Shown here piece by piece: positions 20,386 to 31,393 of a stretch of 57,580 nucleotides of DNA. The stretch is taken from NCBI GenBank assembly GCA_028282685.1, contig JANQHK010000082.1, positions 1 through 57,580 on the forward strand, written 5' to 3'. The DNA comes from Phycisphaeraceae bacterium. GTDB lineage: Bacteria > Planctomycetota > Phycisphaerae > Phycisphaerales > Zrk34. The notes under the pieces are model-generated. The model searched no databases, was not told the origin of the DNA, and saw only the letters and a list, made by a program, of their open reading frames with translations. The number at the start of each line of letters is the position of its first letter. The stretch's first letter is position 1. The translations under genes were made by a program, and so were the position numbers.

Positions 20386-21330
20386 ATGACTGCCATTTCC
20401 ACGCCCATTCCGGATACCGTCGCCGAGCCCGACACCGCGACCGAGGTCGACGCCGCCGCTCTCGCCCAGCCGCCCTGCCTGGTCAGTTTCGATGTCGAGA
20501 CCTACTTCCAGGTTGAAAACGCCAACGGGATCGTCGACAAAGCGCAGTGGGATCGGATGGATCCGCGCCTCGACGCCGTGACCGATCGCCTGCTGGCACT
20601 GCTCGATGAACATCGGTCGTCGGCGACGTTTTTCACGCTCGGCTGGGTGGCGCGGAAGCTGCCGCAGATCGTCCGACGCATCCACGCCGCCGGCCATGAA
20701 ATCGCCTGCCACGGCGATATGCACGATCGCCTGCACCGACTCGGCCCGGACGGTTTCCGCAAAGACCTGGCCAACGCGAAGAAAACACTGGAAGACCTGG
20801 TCGGCTCGCCGGTGCGCGGCTACCGCGCGCCGGTCTTCAGTATCGACCGCACAACGAGCTGGGCCATCGACATCCTTGCCGAGGCCGGCTTCTCGTACGA
20901 CTCATCGATCCAGCCGATCCGTCGCAGAGCATACGGCGTACCCGATGCGCCCGACACGCCCTTCCGCATCGTCGGCCCCGGCGGCAGCCAACTCATCGAA
21001 CTGCCCCTGCTCACGTGGAACGTGCTGGGCTATCGGATGCCCGTGGCCGGGGGAGGGTACTTTCGGTTGCTCCCCCTGCGTTTGATGCTCAACGGCATCG
21101 CGCAGATGAACCGCCGCGGCCTGCCGGCTGCGACCTACTTCCATCCCTGGGAGTTTGATCCGGATCAGCCCCGCCTGCCGATCAACGGCGTCAAACGTTT
21201 TCGTCATTACGTGGGTTTGAAAAAGACAACCCCCCGCCTGGCCGCACTGCTCGACCGCCACCGCTCCACCGCCTTCGCCGCCTGGCTGCAAACCCAGAAG
21301 ACGCAAACCTGGCCGGCGTTTGCGTTGTGA
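20386..21330 (+). CDS. Polysaccharide deacetylase of the exosortase-A (XrtA)-associated type
   Basis: A 314-residue NodB-fold (CE4) deacetylase. The metal and catalytic signatures are SFDVETYFQVEN (motif 1, DxE variant with Asp), HEIACHGDMHDRL (motif 2, HxxxH) and GYRAPVFSID (motif 3). The C-terminal extension with ATYFHPWEFDPDQPR is typical of the PEP-CTERM/XrtA-associated family with a DUF3473-like tail. It would N-deacetylate an exopolysaccharide or peptidoglycan-like substrate. The first 30 residues are low-complexity (Thr/Pro/Ala/Asp) with no clear signal peptide, so it may act in the cytoplasm as its family is usually drawn. The PEP-CTERM substrates in this window fit this context, but no exosortase is here. 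Confidence 0.9.
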   Translation: MTAISTPIPDTVAEPDTATEVDAAALAQPPCLVSFDVETYFQVENANGIVDKAQWDRMDPRLDAVTDRLLALLDEHRSSATFFTLGWVARKLPQIVRRIHAAGHEIACHGDMHDRLHRLGPDGFRKDLANAKKTLEDLVGSPVRGYRAPVFSIDRTTSWAIDILAEAGFSYDSSIQPIRRRAYGVPDAPDTPFRIVGPGGSQLIELPLLTWNVLGYRMPVAGGGYFRLLPLRLMLNGIAQMNRRGLPAATYFHPWEFDPDQPRLPINGVKRFRHYVGLKKTTPRLAALLDRHRSTAFAAWLQTQKTQTWPAFAL

Positions 21331-24618: not shown

Positions 24619-25575
24619 TCAGGTGCCGCCCTTATAGGTAACGTCATCGAATTCAACCAGATCTGCATGGGAAGGGATTGTCGTCGAATCGGTGCGGTTT
24701 TGGGCTTTATGGAAGTAAATCCCGTCATTTCCCGGATGGATGAACAAGTAGCCGGCGCCAACGATGTTATCGACATGGTTGGGGGTGCTCGGATTCTCGC
24801 TGAGCTTGTGATTGATGGCGATCGTGGCCAAGTTGTGCAAGACATTGGCCGTCCCGCTCGCAGCGGTGATTGATAAGAGCGAGTTCCTTCGCTGGTCGTA
24901 GAGTTGGCCTTTTGAGGAGACTAAATCCAACGAAAAAACATACATGTTGTGCATACGGCGCAGGAAGACGGGATTCTCGCCGGCCCCACTTCCCACGGGC
25001 AAAGTTCCCCCCCTGCGGGCGCGGTAATAGAGCAACGGAACGCCGGTGGAGCGATCGAGTAACTCAGGAATCTTGTTGTCGCCGCTAAACGATCCACTGT
25101 CGATCGAGAGGAGCTCGCCTTCCTGCGGCGAATAGAACGGAGCATACAACTTACCCGATTCGCTCAAGGGGCCGGCGCCCACCCGTTCCGGCTCAACGTA
25201 TTTGTTGGGATCGCCTGATTTCCACTTCGGCAACTGAACCGAACCACTGCCCACCTGTCCCATCAGGCTCAAAACCAGGTTTTCATTGCCGCTGAGCCTT
25301 TTCTCGTTGGCGGACGACTCCCACACCCCATCCGCAAGGTAGCCCGGGTAAGCCGACATCTGTGAGTGATATGCCTCGCAGGCACTGGACAGATTATTGA
25401 GTTGGGTCTTAGCCGCCACCCTCTTGGCCTCATTGCGGGCTGCGATCGCGGCGGGGAACAGGACGCTCAACAGAATGACCAGAATACCGATGACGACCAG
25501 CAACTCCACGAGCGTGAAACCGCCCGGTCTCCGATGAGAAAGCAACCCGCCGCGCTGTGTGGTTTTTGTGTTCAC
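24619..25575 (-). CDS. Type II secretion/type IV pilin-like prepilin protein
   Basis: A 318-residue protein with a prepilin N-terminus: a short basic leader, then the cleavage and methylation motif GGFTLVELLVVIGILVILLS (Gly before Phe, Glu at +5) and a hydrophobic helix. The rest is a globular domain with Gly/Ser-rich loops that resembles planctomycete DUF1559-like or GspG/H-type pseudopilins in size but is not assignable. It would be processed by prepilin peptidase and assembled at the inner membrane. The GTG start at 25575 overlaps the upstream gene's stop (GTGA), showing translational coupling; an upstream open stretch lies inside that gene. Role inferred: pseudopilus or secreted surface component. 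Confidence 0.82.
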   Translation of the reverse strand: MNTKTTQRGGLLSHRRPGGFTLVELLVVIGILVILLSVLFPAAIAARNEAKRVAAKTQLNNLSSACEAYHSQMSAYPGYLADGVWESSANEKRLSGNENLVLSLMGQVGSGSVQLPKWKSGDPNKYVEPERVGAGPLSESGKLYAPFYSPQEGELLSIDSGSFSGDNKIPELLDRSTGVPLLYYRARRGGTLPVGSGAGENPVFLRRMHNMYVFSLDLVSSKGQLYDQRRNSLLSITAASGTANVLHNLATIAINHKLSENPSTPNHVDNIVGAGYLFIHPGNDGIYFHKAQNRTDSTTIPSHADLVEFDDVTYKGGT

Positions 25576-26408
25576 GGTGACGACTCCACGACTTTTCCGT
25601 TGTAGCGGTTGAAAATCAACACCGCACCGTTCTCCATGATCCACTCCGACGCGGCATCGTTGACCTGGGACCATCCGCTTTTTGTAGCGTGCTGCAAATC
25701 GTGCCCCGCTTCGCGCAGGGCCATGTTGTCGAAAACCACCACACCGATCACCGTCTCGTAAACGGCAAAGTCCATCACGTACTTGCCGTTGACCTGAGCC
25801 ACCTGGTTCGTGGCGGTTTCCGGATCCCAGTTGTCGGGATTGTAACTGCCCGGTCGGACCGGGCCGGTGGGGTAAGTTTCATTCAGGGCGTAATCGTAAT
25901 AAATCAGGCGACGGAGTTTGGAACTGCTGGCGGCTGAAAAGAGCACACCGTACTTATTGAAGCGCACCCCGAACGGCGCTCCCAGCAACTTCAATCCCTT
26001 GCTGCCCCGTGCGATTCCCACGGCTCGAATCCCGGAGGGCAATTGCAGGGAGCTGGAGTTGGGATAGTCCTCGTAGTACGCGCGCGACTTGCCGGACGAG
26101 TGACCGCCTGTTTCAAACAGGGCACTGGGCGCTTTGGGAGCGTAGACGATGCGGATTTCGCCGGAGGGTGTGAACAGCGCGGCGGCGCCGTGGTAATCGT
26201 TGCGCGGATAGCTGTGGGGCTGGGTGGCGACGGCGCGTGCGGCCACCACCGCCGAAGCCGCCGTGTCGACACCCGTACGGAAGCGCGCCTGGCTGGTAAT
26301 GGCGCCCACCGAAGGAATCATCGCCGCCATAAGCAGAATGATGATGCCCATGACCGCCAACAATTCCACAAGCGTTAAACCGCATGAGCGTTTTTCAGGG
26401 GGACGCAT
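25572..26408 (-). CDS. Prepilin-type N-terminal methylation protein
   Basis: A 278-residue prepilin-like protein. The leader MRPPEKRSCG is followed by LTLVELLAVMGIIILLMAAM, a prepilin cleavage/methylation motif (Gly at -1, Leu instead of Phe at +1, Glu at +5) and membrane helix. The C-terminal part is rich in Tyr/Ser/Gly with no recognised domain. The ATG at 26408 is preferred because GGAG lies 10 bp upstream and because it gives a normal 10-residue leader; an ATG 12 codons upstream is also possible. It is the first gene of a two-gene operon, with a 4-bp overlap to the next pseudopilin. The two proteins share architecture only at the N-terminus, so they are likely distinct components. Confidence 0.8.
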   Translation of the reverse strand: MRPPEKRSCGLTLVELLAVMGIIILLMAAMIPSVGAITSQARFRTGVDTAASAVVAARAVATQPHSYPRNDYHGAAALFTPSGEIRIVYAPKAPSALFETGGHSSGKSRAYYEDYPNSSSLQLPSGIRAVGIARGSKGLKLLGAPFGVRFNKYGVLFSAASSSKLRRLIYYDYALNETYPTGPVRPGSYNPDNWDPETATNQVAQVNGKYVMDFAVYETVIGVVVFDNMALREAGHDLQHATKSGWSQVNDAASEWIMENGAVLIFNRYNGKVVESSP

Positions 26409-26597
26409 GGCGTACAACTCCGGGAGGGTTTCTGGCACATTCATTATATCGTGTCAATGGCGCGTGGGGCAAATAAAAAATCACAGGATAACCCCGGCGG
26501 AACGATTGATCCGTGCGAATTCACGCACCCGAACTCCATTGCGGCTTTTTGACGCTTATTTGAGCAGTTGTATAATCCCTAGGTCTGGAGCCGACGC

Positions 26598-27194
26598 ATG
26601 AGCCAGTTAAACGAACCGAATTGCTTCACCCCAGAAGAGCTGACGCGCCTGGGATTCGCCGAGATCGGGCGGGACGTTCAGATCGATCGGACCTGCCGCT
26701 TTTTCGGCAACGAGCGCATTCGTATCGGCTCCAACGTGCGCATCGATTCGTTCTGTACGTTCAGCGCCGGGGCGGGGGGAATCCGCATCGGAAATCACGT
26801 GCACCTGTCCACGGCGGTGGGACTGGCCGGAGCCGCCGAGATCGTCATCGACGATTTCTGCGGTTTGTCCAGCCGGGTCGCCGTCTTCTCCACGAACGAG
26901 GATTACGCCGGCGGTACGCTGACCAATCCCACCGTTCCCGACACGTGGCGAAACAATATCAGCAAGCCGGTACACTTGAAAAAGCATGTGCTGATCGGCA
27001 GCGGAAGCGTCATCCTGCCGGGTGTGACGGTGGGTATCGCCGCCTCGGTGGGAGCGCTGAGTCTGGTCAATAAATCCATACCCGATTTCGTCGTTGCCGG
27101 CGGCAATCCCATGCGCAAGGTCGGCATGAGAAATCGGAACATTCTCCAGCAGGAAGCCGCCTTCCTCGCCCGACCCGAACACCCCACGGAATAG
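26598..27194 (+). CDS. Left-handed beta-helix (hexapeptide) acyltransferase
   Basis: A 198-residue acyltransferase with repeated hexapeptide units (for example RIRIGSNVRIDSFCTFSAG, IRIGNHVHLSTAVGLAG, HVLIGSGSVILPGVTVGIAA), forming a trimeric left-handed beta helix like galactoside or maltose O-acetyltransferases. These enzymes transfer acetyl or larger acyl groups from CoA, or in some families from ACP, to sugar hydroxyls or amines. It is the first of four closely packed plus-strand genes. An acyl carrier protein gene starts 5 bp after its stop, which makes an ACP-linked donor worth considering (inference). GGAG precedes the ATG by 8 bp. Confidence 0.85.
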   Translation: MSQLNEPNCFTPEELTRLGFAEIGRDVQIDRTCRFFGNERIRIGSNVRIDSFCTFSAGAGGIRIGNHVHLSTAVGLAGAAEIVIDDFCGLSSRVAVFSTNEDYAGGTLTNPTVPDTWRNNISKPVHLKKHVLIGSGSVILPGVTVGIAASVGALSLVNKSIPDFVVAGGNPMRKVGMRNRNILQQEAAFLARPEHPTE

Positions 27195-27199
27195 ACTGC

Positions 27200-27463
27200 A
27201 TGAAACAAGCCGACGCCATCAAAACCTATTTGGCCCAACAGATCGAAGAGATCAAACTGGGCGCGGTCACGGCCGGACAGGTTTCCGGCGACCAGCGATT
27301 GATCCAGGACCTGGGTCTGGACTCGCTGGATTACGCGACCTGCCTGCTGGGTTGCGAGAAGTGGCTGGGAATCAAGGTGCGCGAAGAAGGGGTGGACTGG
27401 AGCCAGATACAAACCGTCGATCAACTCGCCCAATTCCTCGAAGCGCAACAACCCGACGCCTGA
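27200..27463 (+). CDS. Acyl carrier protein
   Basis: An 87-residue acyl carrier protein. The phosphopantetheine attachment site is DLGLDSLDYATCLLGCEKW, with Ser42 as the modified residue. The rest has the expected four-helix pattern, except that the region after helix II (REEGVDWSQIQTVDQLAQFLEA) is somewhat Trp/Gln-rich. It is dedicated and separate from fatty-acid synthase genes: its neighbours are an acyltransferase (5 bp upstream) and an AMP-forming ligase whose start codon overlaps its stop (TGATG). It would need a phosphopantetheinyl transferase, which is not in this window. Confidence 0.92.
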   Translation: MKQADAIKTYLAQQIEEIKLGAVTAGQVSGDQRLIQDLGLDSLDYATCLLGCEKWLGIKVREEGVDWSQIQTVDQLAQFLEAQQPDA

Positions 27464-28587
27464 TGATCCTGCTCGACGATCATCAACCGATTCCCGATGC
27501 CTATACGCCCGGCGGGATGTACCGCGTTCGCGTCGGTACGGATGAGCGACTGGTCGACCAGGCCCGCACTCTGTGGGGCTTCGCCCGTCGCGCCCTGCGC
27601 GATCCGCTGGAGCTGGCTCTCGACCCCCTGGCCGAGCCGGACATACCGCCGCTGGCCGATCTCGAATCGACCCGCCCGGCCCAAACCGGCTGCACGCGCA
27701 GCACACTGACGCTATTCAGCTCCGGCACCACGGGCACACCCAAGCCCCTGCAACATGACCTGGCATCGGTGATGCAGCGCAAGCGCGCCGGCGAGACCGG
27801 TGCCCGTTGGCTGTTGACCTATGCGCCCTGGCGCTGGGCGGGGTTGTCGGTCATGCTGCACGTGTTGAAATCGCAGGCAATACTGATTGTGCCCGACGGA
27901 CTCGGTCCGGAAACGCTGGTCCGCGCCGCCGAGCAGGCCGGGGCAACGCACGTTTCCCTCACGCCCAGCTTCCTGCGGCGGATGGAATTGACCTGCGGAG
28001 AGCAGGCCCTGCGCACGCTACCCCTGCAACAGGTGACGTTCGGGGGCGAGGCGGCAACACAACCGGTGCTCGACACCGCCGGTCGGCTCTGGCCGACCGC
28101 GCGCATCAGCCACGTTTACGCCAGCACCGAAGCCGGGGATGTCTGCGCCGTCTCCGATGGGAAGGCCGGGATCCCCCAATCCAAATTGACCGGCGAGCGG
28201 TTCGGCTTCACCGAGGATGGCGAGCTGACCATCGACGGCCGGGCCACCGGCGACCTGTGGGAACTGAGGGACGGACGCTACCTGTTCCTTGGCCGACGGC
28301 AGGAAATGATCAACGTCGGCGGAGCAAAGGTTTCACCTTACGAGGTGGAGTCGGCGGCGCTGGCGATTGCCGGTATCATCGAGTGCCGGGCCTACGCCGT
28401 ACCCAGCCCGCTGCTGGGGCAAGTCGTGGCTCTGGATTATCGCGGCGAGGCGGATGAAAAAACAGCGCTGCGCACGCTGCGGGAAAAATTACCGAAGATC
28501 GCCTGGCCGGCCCAGATCAATCGGGTTGACACCATCGCCATGACCGACGCCGGCAAGACCCAACGCATCGAAAGGCAAAACCCATGA
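27463..28587 (+). CDS. AMP-dependent acyl/aryl ligase (ANL superfamily), short form
   Basis: A 374-residue adenylate-forming ligase that probably activates a carboxylic acid and loads it on the adjacent ACP. ANL core motifs: LTLFSSGTTGTPKPLQHDL (A3), ISHVYASTEAGDVCAV (A5, Y-x-STE), GDLWELRDGRYLFLGRRQEM (A7-A8 with hinge), INVGGAKVSPYEVESA, and the C-terminal catalytic Lys in MTDAGKTQRIER (A10). It is shorter than typical acyl-CoA ligases (about 500) because the N-terminal region is reduced. Its start overlaps the ACP stop (TGATG) and its stop overlaps the next start (ATGA), so translation is coupled. Substrate (fatty, aryl or hydroxy acid) unknown. Confidence 0.88.
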   Translation: MILLDDHQPIPDAYTPGGMYRVRVGTDERLVDQARTLWGFARRALRDPLELALDPLAEPDIPPLADLESTRPAQTGCTRSTLTLFSSGTTGTPKPLQHDLASVMQRKRAGETGARWLLTYAPWRWAGLSVMLHVLKSQAILIVPDGLGPETLVRAAEQAGATHVSLTPSFLRRMELTCGEQALRTLPLQQVTFGGEAATQPVLDTAGRLWPTARISHVYASTEAGDVCAVSDGKAGIPQSKLTGERFGFTEDGELTIDGRATGDLWELRDGRYLFLGRRQEMINVGGAKVSPYEVESAALAIAGIIECRAYAVPSPLLGQVVALDYRGEADEKTALRTLREKLPKIAWPAQINRVDTIAMTDAGKTQRIERQNP

Positions 28588-29303
28588 CCGAAGAGCGTTC
28601 GACCGTCCTGGTCACCGGCGCCAGTCGCGGACTGGGTCTGGCAATCGCGCGCGATTTCGCCGCCGACCATCGGGTGATCGGCGTCGCTCGCGGTGAACTG
28701 GAGAATCCCGAGAACGATCCCGCCCTCACCGCCATCGATCATCGCAGCGGCATCGACCTGGGCCGGGAACAGGACATCGATCAGCTCGCCCGTGACCTGG
28801 CCCGATGCGATAAGCTGGTGAACAACGTCGGCATGGCTCACGATGGCATCCTCGCCACGCAAAGCCCGGAAAACATCCAGCAGATGCTCCAGGTTAATCT
28901 TTACTCCGTGCTCTACCTGACCAAGCTGTACCTGCGCGAAAGATTGGCCCAGCGCAAAGCCGGGGCGGTGGTGACCATCGGCTCGATCGTCTCGCAGCGC
29001 GGATACCGCGGCCTGGCCGTCTACAGCGCCACCAAATCCGCCCTGAACGGCATGACGCGCTCGCTGGCGCGCGAGATGGGCGCCAAGGGCTTCCGCTTCA
29101 ACTGCGTGCTGCCCGGCTTCATCCAGACCGACATGTCCGATGCGCTGGAAGACGAACAGCGCCAGCAGATCATCCGACGCACTGCGCTGGGGCGACTGGG
29201 CAGGGTGGAAGACGTGGCGCCGGTCGTCCGTTTTCTGCTGGGCGACGAATCCCGGTTCATCACCGGGCAGGAGTTCATCGTGGACGGCGGACTGACCGCG
29301 TGA
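28584..29303 (+). CDS. FabG-like short-chain dehydrogenase/reductase
   Basis: A 239-residue classical SDR. The cofactor motif is VTGASRGLGLAIARDF, the NNVG stretch is KLVNNVGMAHDGI, the active site is GSIVSQRGYRGLAVYSATK (Ser, Tyr, Lys), and the C-terminus FITGQEFIVDGGLTA is FabG-like. FabG enzymes reduce 3-oxoacyl-ACP with NADPH, so it could reduce an acyl-ACP intermediate made by the cassette. The ATG overlaps the ligase stop by 4 bp. It is the last plus-strand gene and converges with the acetyltransferase gene 12 bp away, with no obvious terminator between them. Confidence 0.9.
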   Translation: MTEERSTVLVTGASRGLGLAIARDFAADHRVIGVARGELENPENDPALTAIDHRSGIDLGREQDIDQLARDLARCDKLVNNVGMAHDGILATQSPENIQQMLQVNLYSVLYLTKLYLRERLAQRKAGAVVTIGSIVSQRGYRGLAVYSATKSALNGMTRSLAREMGAKGFRFNCVLPGFIQTDMSDALEDEQRQQIIRRTALGRLGRVEDVAPVVRFLLGDESRFITGQEFIVDGGLTA

Positions 29304-29315
29304 TCGTTCAGGCGT

Positions 29316-29954
29316 TTATTTCTTGACGATACGTGCGGGAACCCCCACCGCCGTCACGCCATCGGGCAAATCGTCAATCACCACCGCCCCGGCCCCGATG
29401 ACCGCGCCCGAGCCGATCGTGGTGTTCTGAATCACCGACGAGCCGGTCCCCACGTGGCCGGCCGGCCCGATGCGCACCGTGCCGCTGAGCGTGGCGCCCG
29501 GAGCGATGTGGCAATGGGAGCCGATGCGGCAATCGTGATCGACCGAAGCCCGTGTATTGATCAGCACGTTGTCCTCGATCACCGCATCGGGCTGAATCAC
29601 CGCCCCGGCCATCACCTGCACGCCCTCTCCCAACCGGGCGGATTCGGCAATCACGGCCGAGGGGTGAATCAACGTTTCAAAACGATATCCGCGCTCGGTG
29701 AAACGCGTGAACAGCTTTCTTCGGCAGTCCGCCCTGGCAACCGAGCCCACGCCGTTGATCAATCGGACCTGCGAAGGGTCTTCCTGCAACACCAGGTCGT
29801 CCCCGCCGCGTATGGTCACGCCGTAATAGACTTCCTCATGCCTGGCCGGATCATTGTCCACGGCAAACGCAACCTTTCGGCCGTGCAGGCGCAGGATGTC
29901 GAGCAGCATCTTGGCATGCGTTCCGGCGCCAACGAGGATGAAAGACTGGACCAT
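29316..29954 (-). CDS. NeuD/PglD-family sugar O/N-acetyltransferase
   Basis: A 212-residue acetyltransferase with an N-terminal PglD substrate-binding subdomain (FILVGAGTHAKMLLDILRLHG) and a C-terminal left-handed beta helix of hexapeptide repeats (VIQPDAVIEDNVLINTRASVDHD, HIAPGATLSGTVRIG). The catalytic His of the family lies in ASVDHDCRIGSHCHIAPG. PglD acetylates UDP-4-amino-sugars and NeuD acts in sialic-acid pathways, both in cytosolic nucleotide-sugar synthesis. It follows the aminotransferase gene by 22 bp on the same strand, as in PglE/PglD pairs, which supports acetylation of an amino sugar produced next door. No 4,6-dehydratase (PglF-like) was found nearby. Confidence 0.9.
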   Translation of the reverse strand: MVQSFILVGAGTHAKMLLDILRLHGRKVAFAVDNDPARHEEVYYGVTIRGGDDLVLQEDPSQVRLINGVGSVARADCRRKLFTRFTERGYRFETLIHPSAVIAESARLGEGVQVMAGAVIQPDAVIEDNVLINTRASVDHDCRIGSHCHIAPGATLSGTVRIGPAGHVGTGSSVIQNTTIGSGAVIGAGAVVIDDLPDGVTAVGVPARIVKK

Positions 29955-29976: not shown

Positions 29977-31170
29977 TCAGAGCAGATGCGGGCTGCTGGG
30001 CAAATTGATGATCCGCTGCGCCAGCGATTCGGTGATCGGCAGTTCCATGCGCGGGCAATCGGCATGCATCGGCAGCGTGTGCATCGGATTCCAGACCGGC
30101 CGAACCAGCAGCTTGGCCTCGTTCATCGCGTTGATCAGATCGTCGCGGCGGCCGGCATGCTCGGGATCGAGCATCAGGATGTTCAGCCAATAGTTGCTGC
30201 GGGCGAAGGGCTGCTCCCGGTAGATCGTCACCCCTTCGATGTCGGCAAAGGCCTGGATGTAACGCTCGGCAATGGCGCGCTTGGCCTGGATGACTTGATC
30301 CAGCCGCTCCATCTCAGCGCAGCCCAGCGCGGCGTTGAGATTCGGCAGACGATGATTGTACGCGGTCACATCGTGGTAATACTCCCACGCCGCCTTGCCG
30401 CACTTGGCGGTGGTGGTCACGTGCTTTGCGGTTTGAGCCAGGTCGGGATCGGCGGTGAGGATCGCCCCCCCGCCGCCGCAGGTGATCGTCTTGTTGCCGT
30501 TGAAACTGAGGATGCCCAGCTTGCCGAAGGTTCCGGTGTGTTGCTTTTTGTAGAACGTGCCGAGTGATTCCGCCGCATCTTCCACCATCGTCAGTCTAAA
30601 CCGTTCACACACCACCGCCAGCGCCTCCATATCGCAGGGTTGGCCGAACGTGTGCATCGGCACCAGCGCCGCAAGGCGCCGACCGGTTTGGCGATTGACT
30701 GGTCCGTCCCCGCTCTGTTCGGCGATTTGCTTGAGGTAATCGCCGAGCCGTTCGGCATCCACACCCAGCGTGCGTTCATCAATGTCCACGAAGTGGGGAA
30801 TCGCCCGGCAGTAACGGGCCGCGTTGGCCGTGGCCACGAAGGTCAGCGCGGGCATGAGCACTTCGTCGCCGTCGCGCACGCCCGCCAGTTCCAGCGCCAC
30901 GTGCAAGGCCGCGGTGCCGTTGACCACCGCCACCGCATGCGGCGAGCCGGTGTACTCGGCCAGCATCTGCTCGAACCGATCGACGAACGCCCCGGCGCTG
31001 GAGACCCACCCGGTATCGATGCATTGCTTGACGTACGACCAGGCGGCGGGATTGGCCGAATAATCCGGGGTATGTAAAGGCACGACGCCGGTGTATCCCG
31101 GCAGGGACGCACGCGTCGTTTCGATGACGGTTTCGATACCGAACGGGCGGGTTCCGCTGTGTTCGCTCAT
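29977..31170 (-). CDS. DegT/DnrJ/EryC1 sugar aminotransferase (LegC-like)
   Basis: A 397-residue PLP-dependent aminotransferase that would convert a keto nucleotide sugar to an amino sugar. Features are VPLHTPDYSANPAAWSYVKQ with WVSSAG near the N-terminus, VVNGTAALHVAL, the PLP-phosphate/Asp region TMVEDAAESLGTFYK, and the Schiff-base Lys in SFNGNKTITCGGGGAI (about residue 227). The C-terminal half has RPVWNPMHTLPMHADCPRM. The overall pattern resembles the LegC subgroup used in legionaminic-acid-like pathways. The ATG at 31170 is preferred over the first Met seven codons upstream, which is also possible. It is divergent from the sugar transferase gene and cotranscribed with the PglD-like gene. 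Confidence 0.9.
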   Translation of the reverse strand: MSEHSGTRPFGIETVIETTRASLPGYTGVVPLHTPDYSANPAAWSYVKQCIDTGWVSSAGAFVDRFEQMLAEYTGSPHAVAVVNGTAALHVALELAGVRDGDEVLMPALTFVATANAARYCRAIPHFVDIDERTLGVDAERLGDYLKQIAEQSGDGPVNRQTGRRLAALVPMHTFGQPCDMEALAVVCERFRLTMVEDAAESLGTFYKKQHTGTFGKLGILSFNGNKTITCGGGGAILTADPDLAQTAKHVTTTAKCGKAAWEYYHDVTAYNHRLPNLNAALGCAEMERLDQVIQAKRAIAERYIQAFADIEGVTIYREQPFARSNYWLNILMLDPEHAGRRDDLINAMNEAKLLVRPVWNPMHTLPMHADCPRMELPITESLAQRIINLPSSPHLL

Positions 31171-31393
31171 GGCCGCTCCTGACAGTGGCAAAGAAAGTTC
31201 TAGCGTAATCCTGAGTTATCGGTCCGGCAAGTAAGCATCCGGCCTGCTCACGAACATCCCATACGCCATGCACCGTTCCCTCATTTGGATTCCCGTGGCA
31301 AGTTGCTACGATATCGACCCGATACAAGAATCGATTCGAGTCCGATTCACGCTTCCACGCGCCGTTGCCGCGTTAGCCAGCGATCGGTTGAAC

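Follow-up and report, generated by a model that had tools for sequence, protein, structure and literature searches.

Gene content of the locus

The window analyzed here, a 57,580-nucleotide stretch that is contig C8 of a 2.94-Mb Phycisphaeraceae genome, carries a polysaccharide locus with genes for a sugar-phosphate transferase, a nucleotide-sugar dehydrogenase, epimerases, glycosyltransferases and an XrtA polysaccharide deacetylase, together with a weak MatE match (flippase-like). Within this locus lie four plus-strand genes whose open reading frames are packed exactly as a preliminary description of the DNA had claimed, with 5 bp between the acyltransferase and the acyl carrier protein (ACP), a TGATG junction between the ACP and the ligase, and an ATGA junction between the ligase and the SDR reductase. 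The cassette and its closest neighbors comprise the following features:

26549–26576, plus strand: sigma-70-like promoter, TTGACG-16-TATAAT (consensus match only)
26598–27194, plus strand: hexapeptide acyltransferase (198 aa; open reading frame with Hexapep match)
27200–27463, plus strand: dedicated ACP (87 aa; Ser42 in a DSL motif; NCBIfam ACP models)
27463–28587, plus strand: short AMP-forming ligase (374 aa; AMP-binding and AMP-binding_C), presumed ACP loader
28584–29303, plus strand: MupS/TmlS-type SDR reductase (239 aa; adh_short_C2/FabG-like; typed by profile and tree)
29316–29954, minus strand: NeuD/PglD-type sugar acyltransferase, the second sugar acyltransferase (TIGR03570, 234.9 bits versus a cut-off of 160.8)
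29977–31191, minus strand: LegC-family sugar aminotransferase (TIGR04181, 502 bits versus a cut-off of 420)

The promoter-like sequence matches the consensus at 11 of 12 positions and ends 21 bp ahead of the first ATG. The NeuD-type and LegC genes are on the opposite strand, convergent with the cassette, and the LegC-family aminotransferase is the likely source of an amino-sugar acceptor. Two prepilin-like genes (24619–25674 and 25572–26444, minus strand) are divergent from the cassette; the first encodes an N-methylation motif, and there is a promoter-like site on the minus strand (26472–26443). The XrtA-type polysaccharide deacetylase (20386–21330) scored above its family cut-off, and an EpsH exosortase is encoded on another contig of the source genome (G000:C134:69522-70259).

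The carrier protein and reductase resemble mupirocin-type priming proteins

For mupirocin, MupQ, MupS and MacpD convert malonyl-CoA into a 3-hydroxypropionyl group carried by MacpD, whereas the thiomarinol starter unit is 4-hydroxybutanoyl (PMC10098928). Like MupQ/MupS/MacpD and TmlQ/TmlS/TacpD, the window encodes an AMP ligase, a MupS-type SDR and a dedicated ACP together, but it has a sugar N-acyltransferase where a polyketide synthase stands in those systems.

The ACP had no Pfam match at the cut-off and matched NCBIfam ACP models with E values of 1e-8 to 1e-3. When we searched solved proteins with an ACP profile built from glycan cassettes only, without any antibiotic-cluster member, MacpD ranked first (65.5 versus 39.4 bits). 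Ser42, to which the preliminary description had drawn attention, is present within the DSL motif, and on these sequence comparisons the protein is a MacpD-like carrier with Ser42 as its predicted phosphopantetheine serine. The antibiotic-cluster ACPs have a C-terminal extension, which the window ACP lacks.

The SDR gave a parallel result. Searching the PDB with a profile made solely from glycan-cassette SDRs placed MupS first, at 276.6 bits, with the next protein at 227.3. In a maximum-likelihood tree, all of the cassette SDRs and MupS/TmlS were set apart from FabG and other SDRs (support 96/93), and MupS/TmlS were nested in a 14-row set that included the window SDR (support 95/89). The MupS-type assignment rests on the profile and the tree because, by plain identity, the window SDR is at least as close to the FabG-type protein of its own genome (39%) as to TmlS (38%). 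Membership in the FabG family of fatty-acid 3-oxoacyl-ACP reductases was rejected, as the SDR scored 185.7 bits against a cut-off of 297.75 and fell outside the FabG rows of the tree. We also considered signature residues as a marker and set them aside, because only four alignment columns separated the groups and some of these were weak. The window SDR retains Asn105, Ser134, Tyr147 and Lys151. It is not simply FabG-like, as first described, but belongs by profile and tree to the MupS/TmlS clade of mupirocin and thiomarinol 'priming' reductases.

A short ligase outside the TmlQ clade

As noted previously, the ligase is short: relative to its homologs it is missing ~75 N-terminal residues and ~20 residues around motif A6, and several relatives are also short (~358–398 aa). 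Its ATP loop, YASTE, TGD and GRRxxxINVGG motifs and Lys365 are present. The ligase tree had three groups: clade A, with the window ligase and those of Azospirillum, Haematobacter, Qingshengfaniella, contig L033 and four genomes of the window's class; clade B, with TmlQ, polyketide synthase (PKS) ligases and the remaining glycan cassettes; and a third group of exosortase-type (TIGR03098-like) rows, none of which exceeded the TIGR03098 cut-off. The window ligase therefore differs from TmlQ in clade, and it also lacks the DHIGG stretch of TmlQ and the PKS ligases, so the acid that it activates may differ as well. The earlier comparison of this gene to exosortase-A-associated ligases did not hold, as the protein scored 62.7 bits against a TIGR03098 cut-off of 592 and fell in a separate tree group.

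The closest ligase outside the cassettes was a domain of an AMP-binding–KR–PP-binding–KS module (G486), which is a fused version of the cassette. A predicted structure of the window ligase had low confidence (pLDDT 58.8); its fold matched MenE-type and other ligases, which added little to the sequence evidence and gave nothing sure on the missing N terminus.

An AntD-type sugar N-acyltransferase

A phmmer search of the PDB with the cassette acyltransferase retrieved entries for AntD, the anthrose N-acyltransferase (PDB 3vbi–3vbp), at 129.7–131.9 bits, with the next solved family at 40. PDB titles describe AntD as an N-acyltransferase and name dTDP-4-amino-4,6-dideoxyglucose and 3-hydroxybutyryl-CoA as ligands in its structures. 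The two proteins are 38% identical over 182 aa, and in the alignment AntD Ser84 is kept (as Ser91), whereas AntD Asp94 is replaced by Glu101. By this wide margin, the cassette enzyme appears to be an AntD-type left-handed beta-helix sugar N-acyltransferase. A low-confidence predicted structure (pLDDT 57.8) also matched AntD first, with a Z score of 12.6 but an rmsd of 12, which added little to the sequence comparison.

Among other cassettes, L033 and L034 have AntD-like acyltransferases (46% and 36% identity), and for those of Haematobacter and Qingshengfaniella the likeness to AntD is not clear. Several cassettes lack an AntD-type enzyme, Azospirillum having a KASIII gene and others encoding GNAT or other hexapeptide enzymes, a point against the pathway proposed below.

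The cassette is a conserved module

Co-occurrence in other genomes had been set beforehand as the test that could refute the preliminary description. Our profile searches covered genomes of the class and phylum to which the window belongs, together with IMG/VR and plasmids; other phyla were sampled unevenly. The ACP, SDR and ligase genes were adjacent in all 16 other loci examined, which argues against chance. These loci comprised five from the first searches, six from further genomes of the class and five IMG/VR contigs, drawn from genomes of the window's class, Verrucomicrobia and IMG/VR, and they showed two orders, ACP–ligase–SDR or ACP–SDR–ligase. The trio was also adjacent in seven plasmid loci. 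A hexapeptide acyltransferase gene touched the trio in six loci (L009, L012, L027, L031, L033 and L034), and the window's exact order, acyltransferase–ACP–ligase–SDR, recurred in three: the alphaproteobacterial plasmids of Haematobacter massiliensis (pOT1-6) and Qingshengfaniella alkalisoli, and L033, a 334-kb T4-like phage contig. The four genes are thus a conserved module with relatives in several bacterial phyla, and on this test the preliminary description stands. In the Verrucomicrobia locus L009, an EpsI-like reading frame follows the cassette (judged by eye).

Within the class the cassette is rare, with profile matches in 10 of 397 genomes, the window's included. A ligase search of 101 related genomes identified four other genomes, all four with the trio, and a single-sequence scan of genome contigs returned one relative only. 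Two profile matches without separate trio genes both came from one genome, and the one examined was the fused AMP-binding–KR–PP-binding–KS module.

The surroundings of the cassettes fell into glycan and antibiotic contexts. Some have amino-sugar genes as neighbors: DegT-family genes in L032, L033, L034 and L037/Haematobacter, LegC in the window, and pseI in Azospirillum, where the trio and the KASIII gene sit between pseudaminic acid synthase and flagellin. On pTML1 (thiomarinol) and on Bradyrhizobium and Burkholderia plasmids, the order ligase–SDR–ACP precedes polyketide synthase genes; in L038 and L039 (the Burkholderia stagnalis and Bradyrhizobium plasmids), this thiomarinol-like arrangement immediately precedes genes for a very large polyketide synthase and an alpha/beta hydrolase. 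Separately, on a Rhizobium sp. T1470 plasmid (L040:7321-9362), a clade-B-type SDR and ligase have a CmlS-type halogenase and an alpha/beta hydrolase as neighbors, possibly an unstudied small natural-product cluster.

Two cassette-bearing IMG/VR contigs, L033 (G771, 334 kb) and L035 (G774, 180 kb), also have a gene for a T4-type Gp23 major capsid protein. The presence of this gene on two virus-classed contigs indicates that the cassette also travels with phages, and hydroxyacyl-glycan cassettes seem to occur in large T4-like phages. In L033 the cassette lies behind the DegT-family gene. Directly ahead of the acyltransferase, L033 (3443–4066) and L034 (2509–3096) each encode a ~200-aa protein whose match to the DegT family is confined to a short N-terminal stretch. 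A terminase search of the virus contigs found none, and the L033 ligase had no close relative in annotated phage records, all matches being partial and 22–27% identical.

A proposed pathway and its alternatives

Taking as directly observed the gene order, its conservation, the family assignments and the retained active-site residues, we propose that the ligase would adenylate a small carboxylic acid and load it onto the ACP phosphopantetheine; that the SDR, as its place in the MupS/TmlS clade suggests, would act on the loaded ACP and reduce its acyl group, giving a short hydroxyacyl-ACP; and that the AntD-type acyltransferase would use this hydroxyacyl group to acylate the amine of an amino-deoxy sugar linked to a nucleotide. 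The acceptor would be made by the adjacent LegC-type aminotransferase and enter a surface polysaccharide. The LegC, DegT-family and pseI genes beside cassettes fit transfer to a nucleotide amino sugar. The donor of AntD is a CoA thioester, and an ACP donor for the cassette acyltransferase is therefore our assumption. In its general form—acid on the ACP, reduction, and N-acylation of an amino sugar—we consider glycan decoration by the first three of these steps the probable function of the cassette. The core of the preliminary idea, an acid placed on a dedicated ACP, reduced and passed to a sugar, has gained from the co-occurrence of the genes, the MupS/MacpD-like SDR and ACP and the AntD-like acyltransferase; its further suggestion of a lipid carrier as recipient found no support.

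Mupirocin-type priming uses a bis-thioester mechanism, and 4-hydroxybutyryl is derived from succinyl-CoA. By analogy, we tentatively suggest that the product might be an omega-hydroxyacyl amide, either 3-hydroxypropionyl or 4-hydroxybutyryl, made from malonyl- or succinyl-CoA. A 4-hydroxybutanoyl group on Qui3N is known from the O-polysaccharide of Idiomarina abyssalis KMM 227 (cited in PMC9695755).

The position of the window ligase outside the TmlQ clade leaves room for a different acid; the serious rivals are acetoacetate, which would yield 3-hydroxybutyryl, and 2-keto acids, which would yield lactyl. If the acid were acetoacetate or another 3-keto acid, the SDR would have the ordinary role of a 3-ketoacyl-ACP reductase, and a 3-hydroxybutyramido sugar would result. 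Such sugars are common, the SDR shares 39% identity with the FabG-type protein of its own genome, and AntD, the nearest solved relative of the acyltransferase, was crystallized with 3-hydroxybutyryl-CoA; nonetheless, we regard this route as unlikely, given that the SDR groups with MupS/TmlS and not with FabG. The MupS-like character of the SDR weighs likewise against a 2-keto acid such as pyruvate, for which the ligase and SDR would work like the A–KR pair of depsipeptide synthetases to yield a lactyl-type 2-hydroxyacyl amide. We consider this quite improbable, even with the closest non-cassette ligase domain lying in an A–KR–ACP module and with N-lactyl pseudaminic acid and perosamine both occurring (PMC7281560). 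There is only a slight chance that the SDR acts on a sugar while the ligase, ACP and acyltransferase add an unreduced acid, the genes being merely part of a polysaccharide operon, since the SDR, although SDRs are common in sugar loci and NeuD and LegC genes adjoin this one, groups with MupS and stays with the ACP and ligase where sugar genes are absent (thiomarinol and other PKS plasmids).

Relation to known systems

Glycan clusters with comparable genes have been described. Group II polar-flagellin islands of Aeromonas contain orf1–orf3, encoding an ACP, a 3-oxoacyl-ACP reductase and an AMP synthetase, for which a liposugar role was suggested and no function shown (PMC7874193). These nonulosonic-acid glycan islands share three gene types with our cassette, but they also contain luxE/luxC, and the excerpted text mentions no AntD-type gene (PMC7874193). 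In the Vibrio cholerae O1 O-antigen cluster, RfbL, which groups with AasS, is described as activating a hydroxy acid with the carrier RfbK (PMC12208996). As described, that cluster resembles the cassette in pairing an AMP ligase with a carrier protein in a glycan setting. The RfbK/RfbL system uses other reductases than the cassette's.

Both the component proteins and the chemistry of priming are known already, and ACP/reductase/ligase trios had been reported without function in Aeromonas. The first proposal, a wholly unrecognized kind of route, is therefore not supported, given the characterized MupQ/MupS/MacpD priming cassette and the trios of the Aeromonas flagellin islands. Our text searches for glycan loci with the cassette returned the Aeromonas paper (PMC7874193) alone, and no paper in the literature searched linked a mupirocin-type cassette with glycan acylation.

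With some hesitation, we raise the possibility of a general mobile pathway of hydroxyacylation of surface amino sugars, present in Planctomycetota-like bacteria, Verrucomicrobia, Alphaproteobacteria and T4-like phages. In it, priming enzymes of the mupirocin type would supply AntD-type N-acyltransferases with hydroxyacyl-ACP, perhaps through a four-electron reduction of a dicarboxylyl thioester, and the antibiotic starter-unit reductases would descend from the glycan pool. The function proposed here for the cassette would connect antibiotic starter-unit priming with surface-sugar N-acylation, a link absent from the literature searched. It would also offer a concrete, testable role for the orphan ACP, ligase and 'FabG' genes found repeatedly in polysaccharide and flagellin-glycosylation islands and annotated as fatty-acid genes; where the contig has T4-type capsid genes, the cassette may decorate phage or host glycans.
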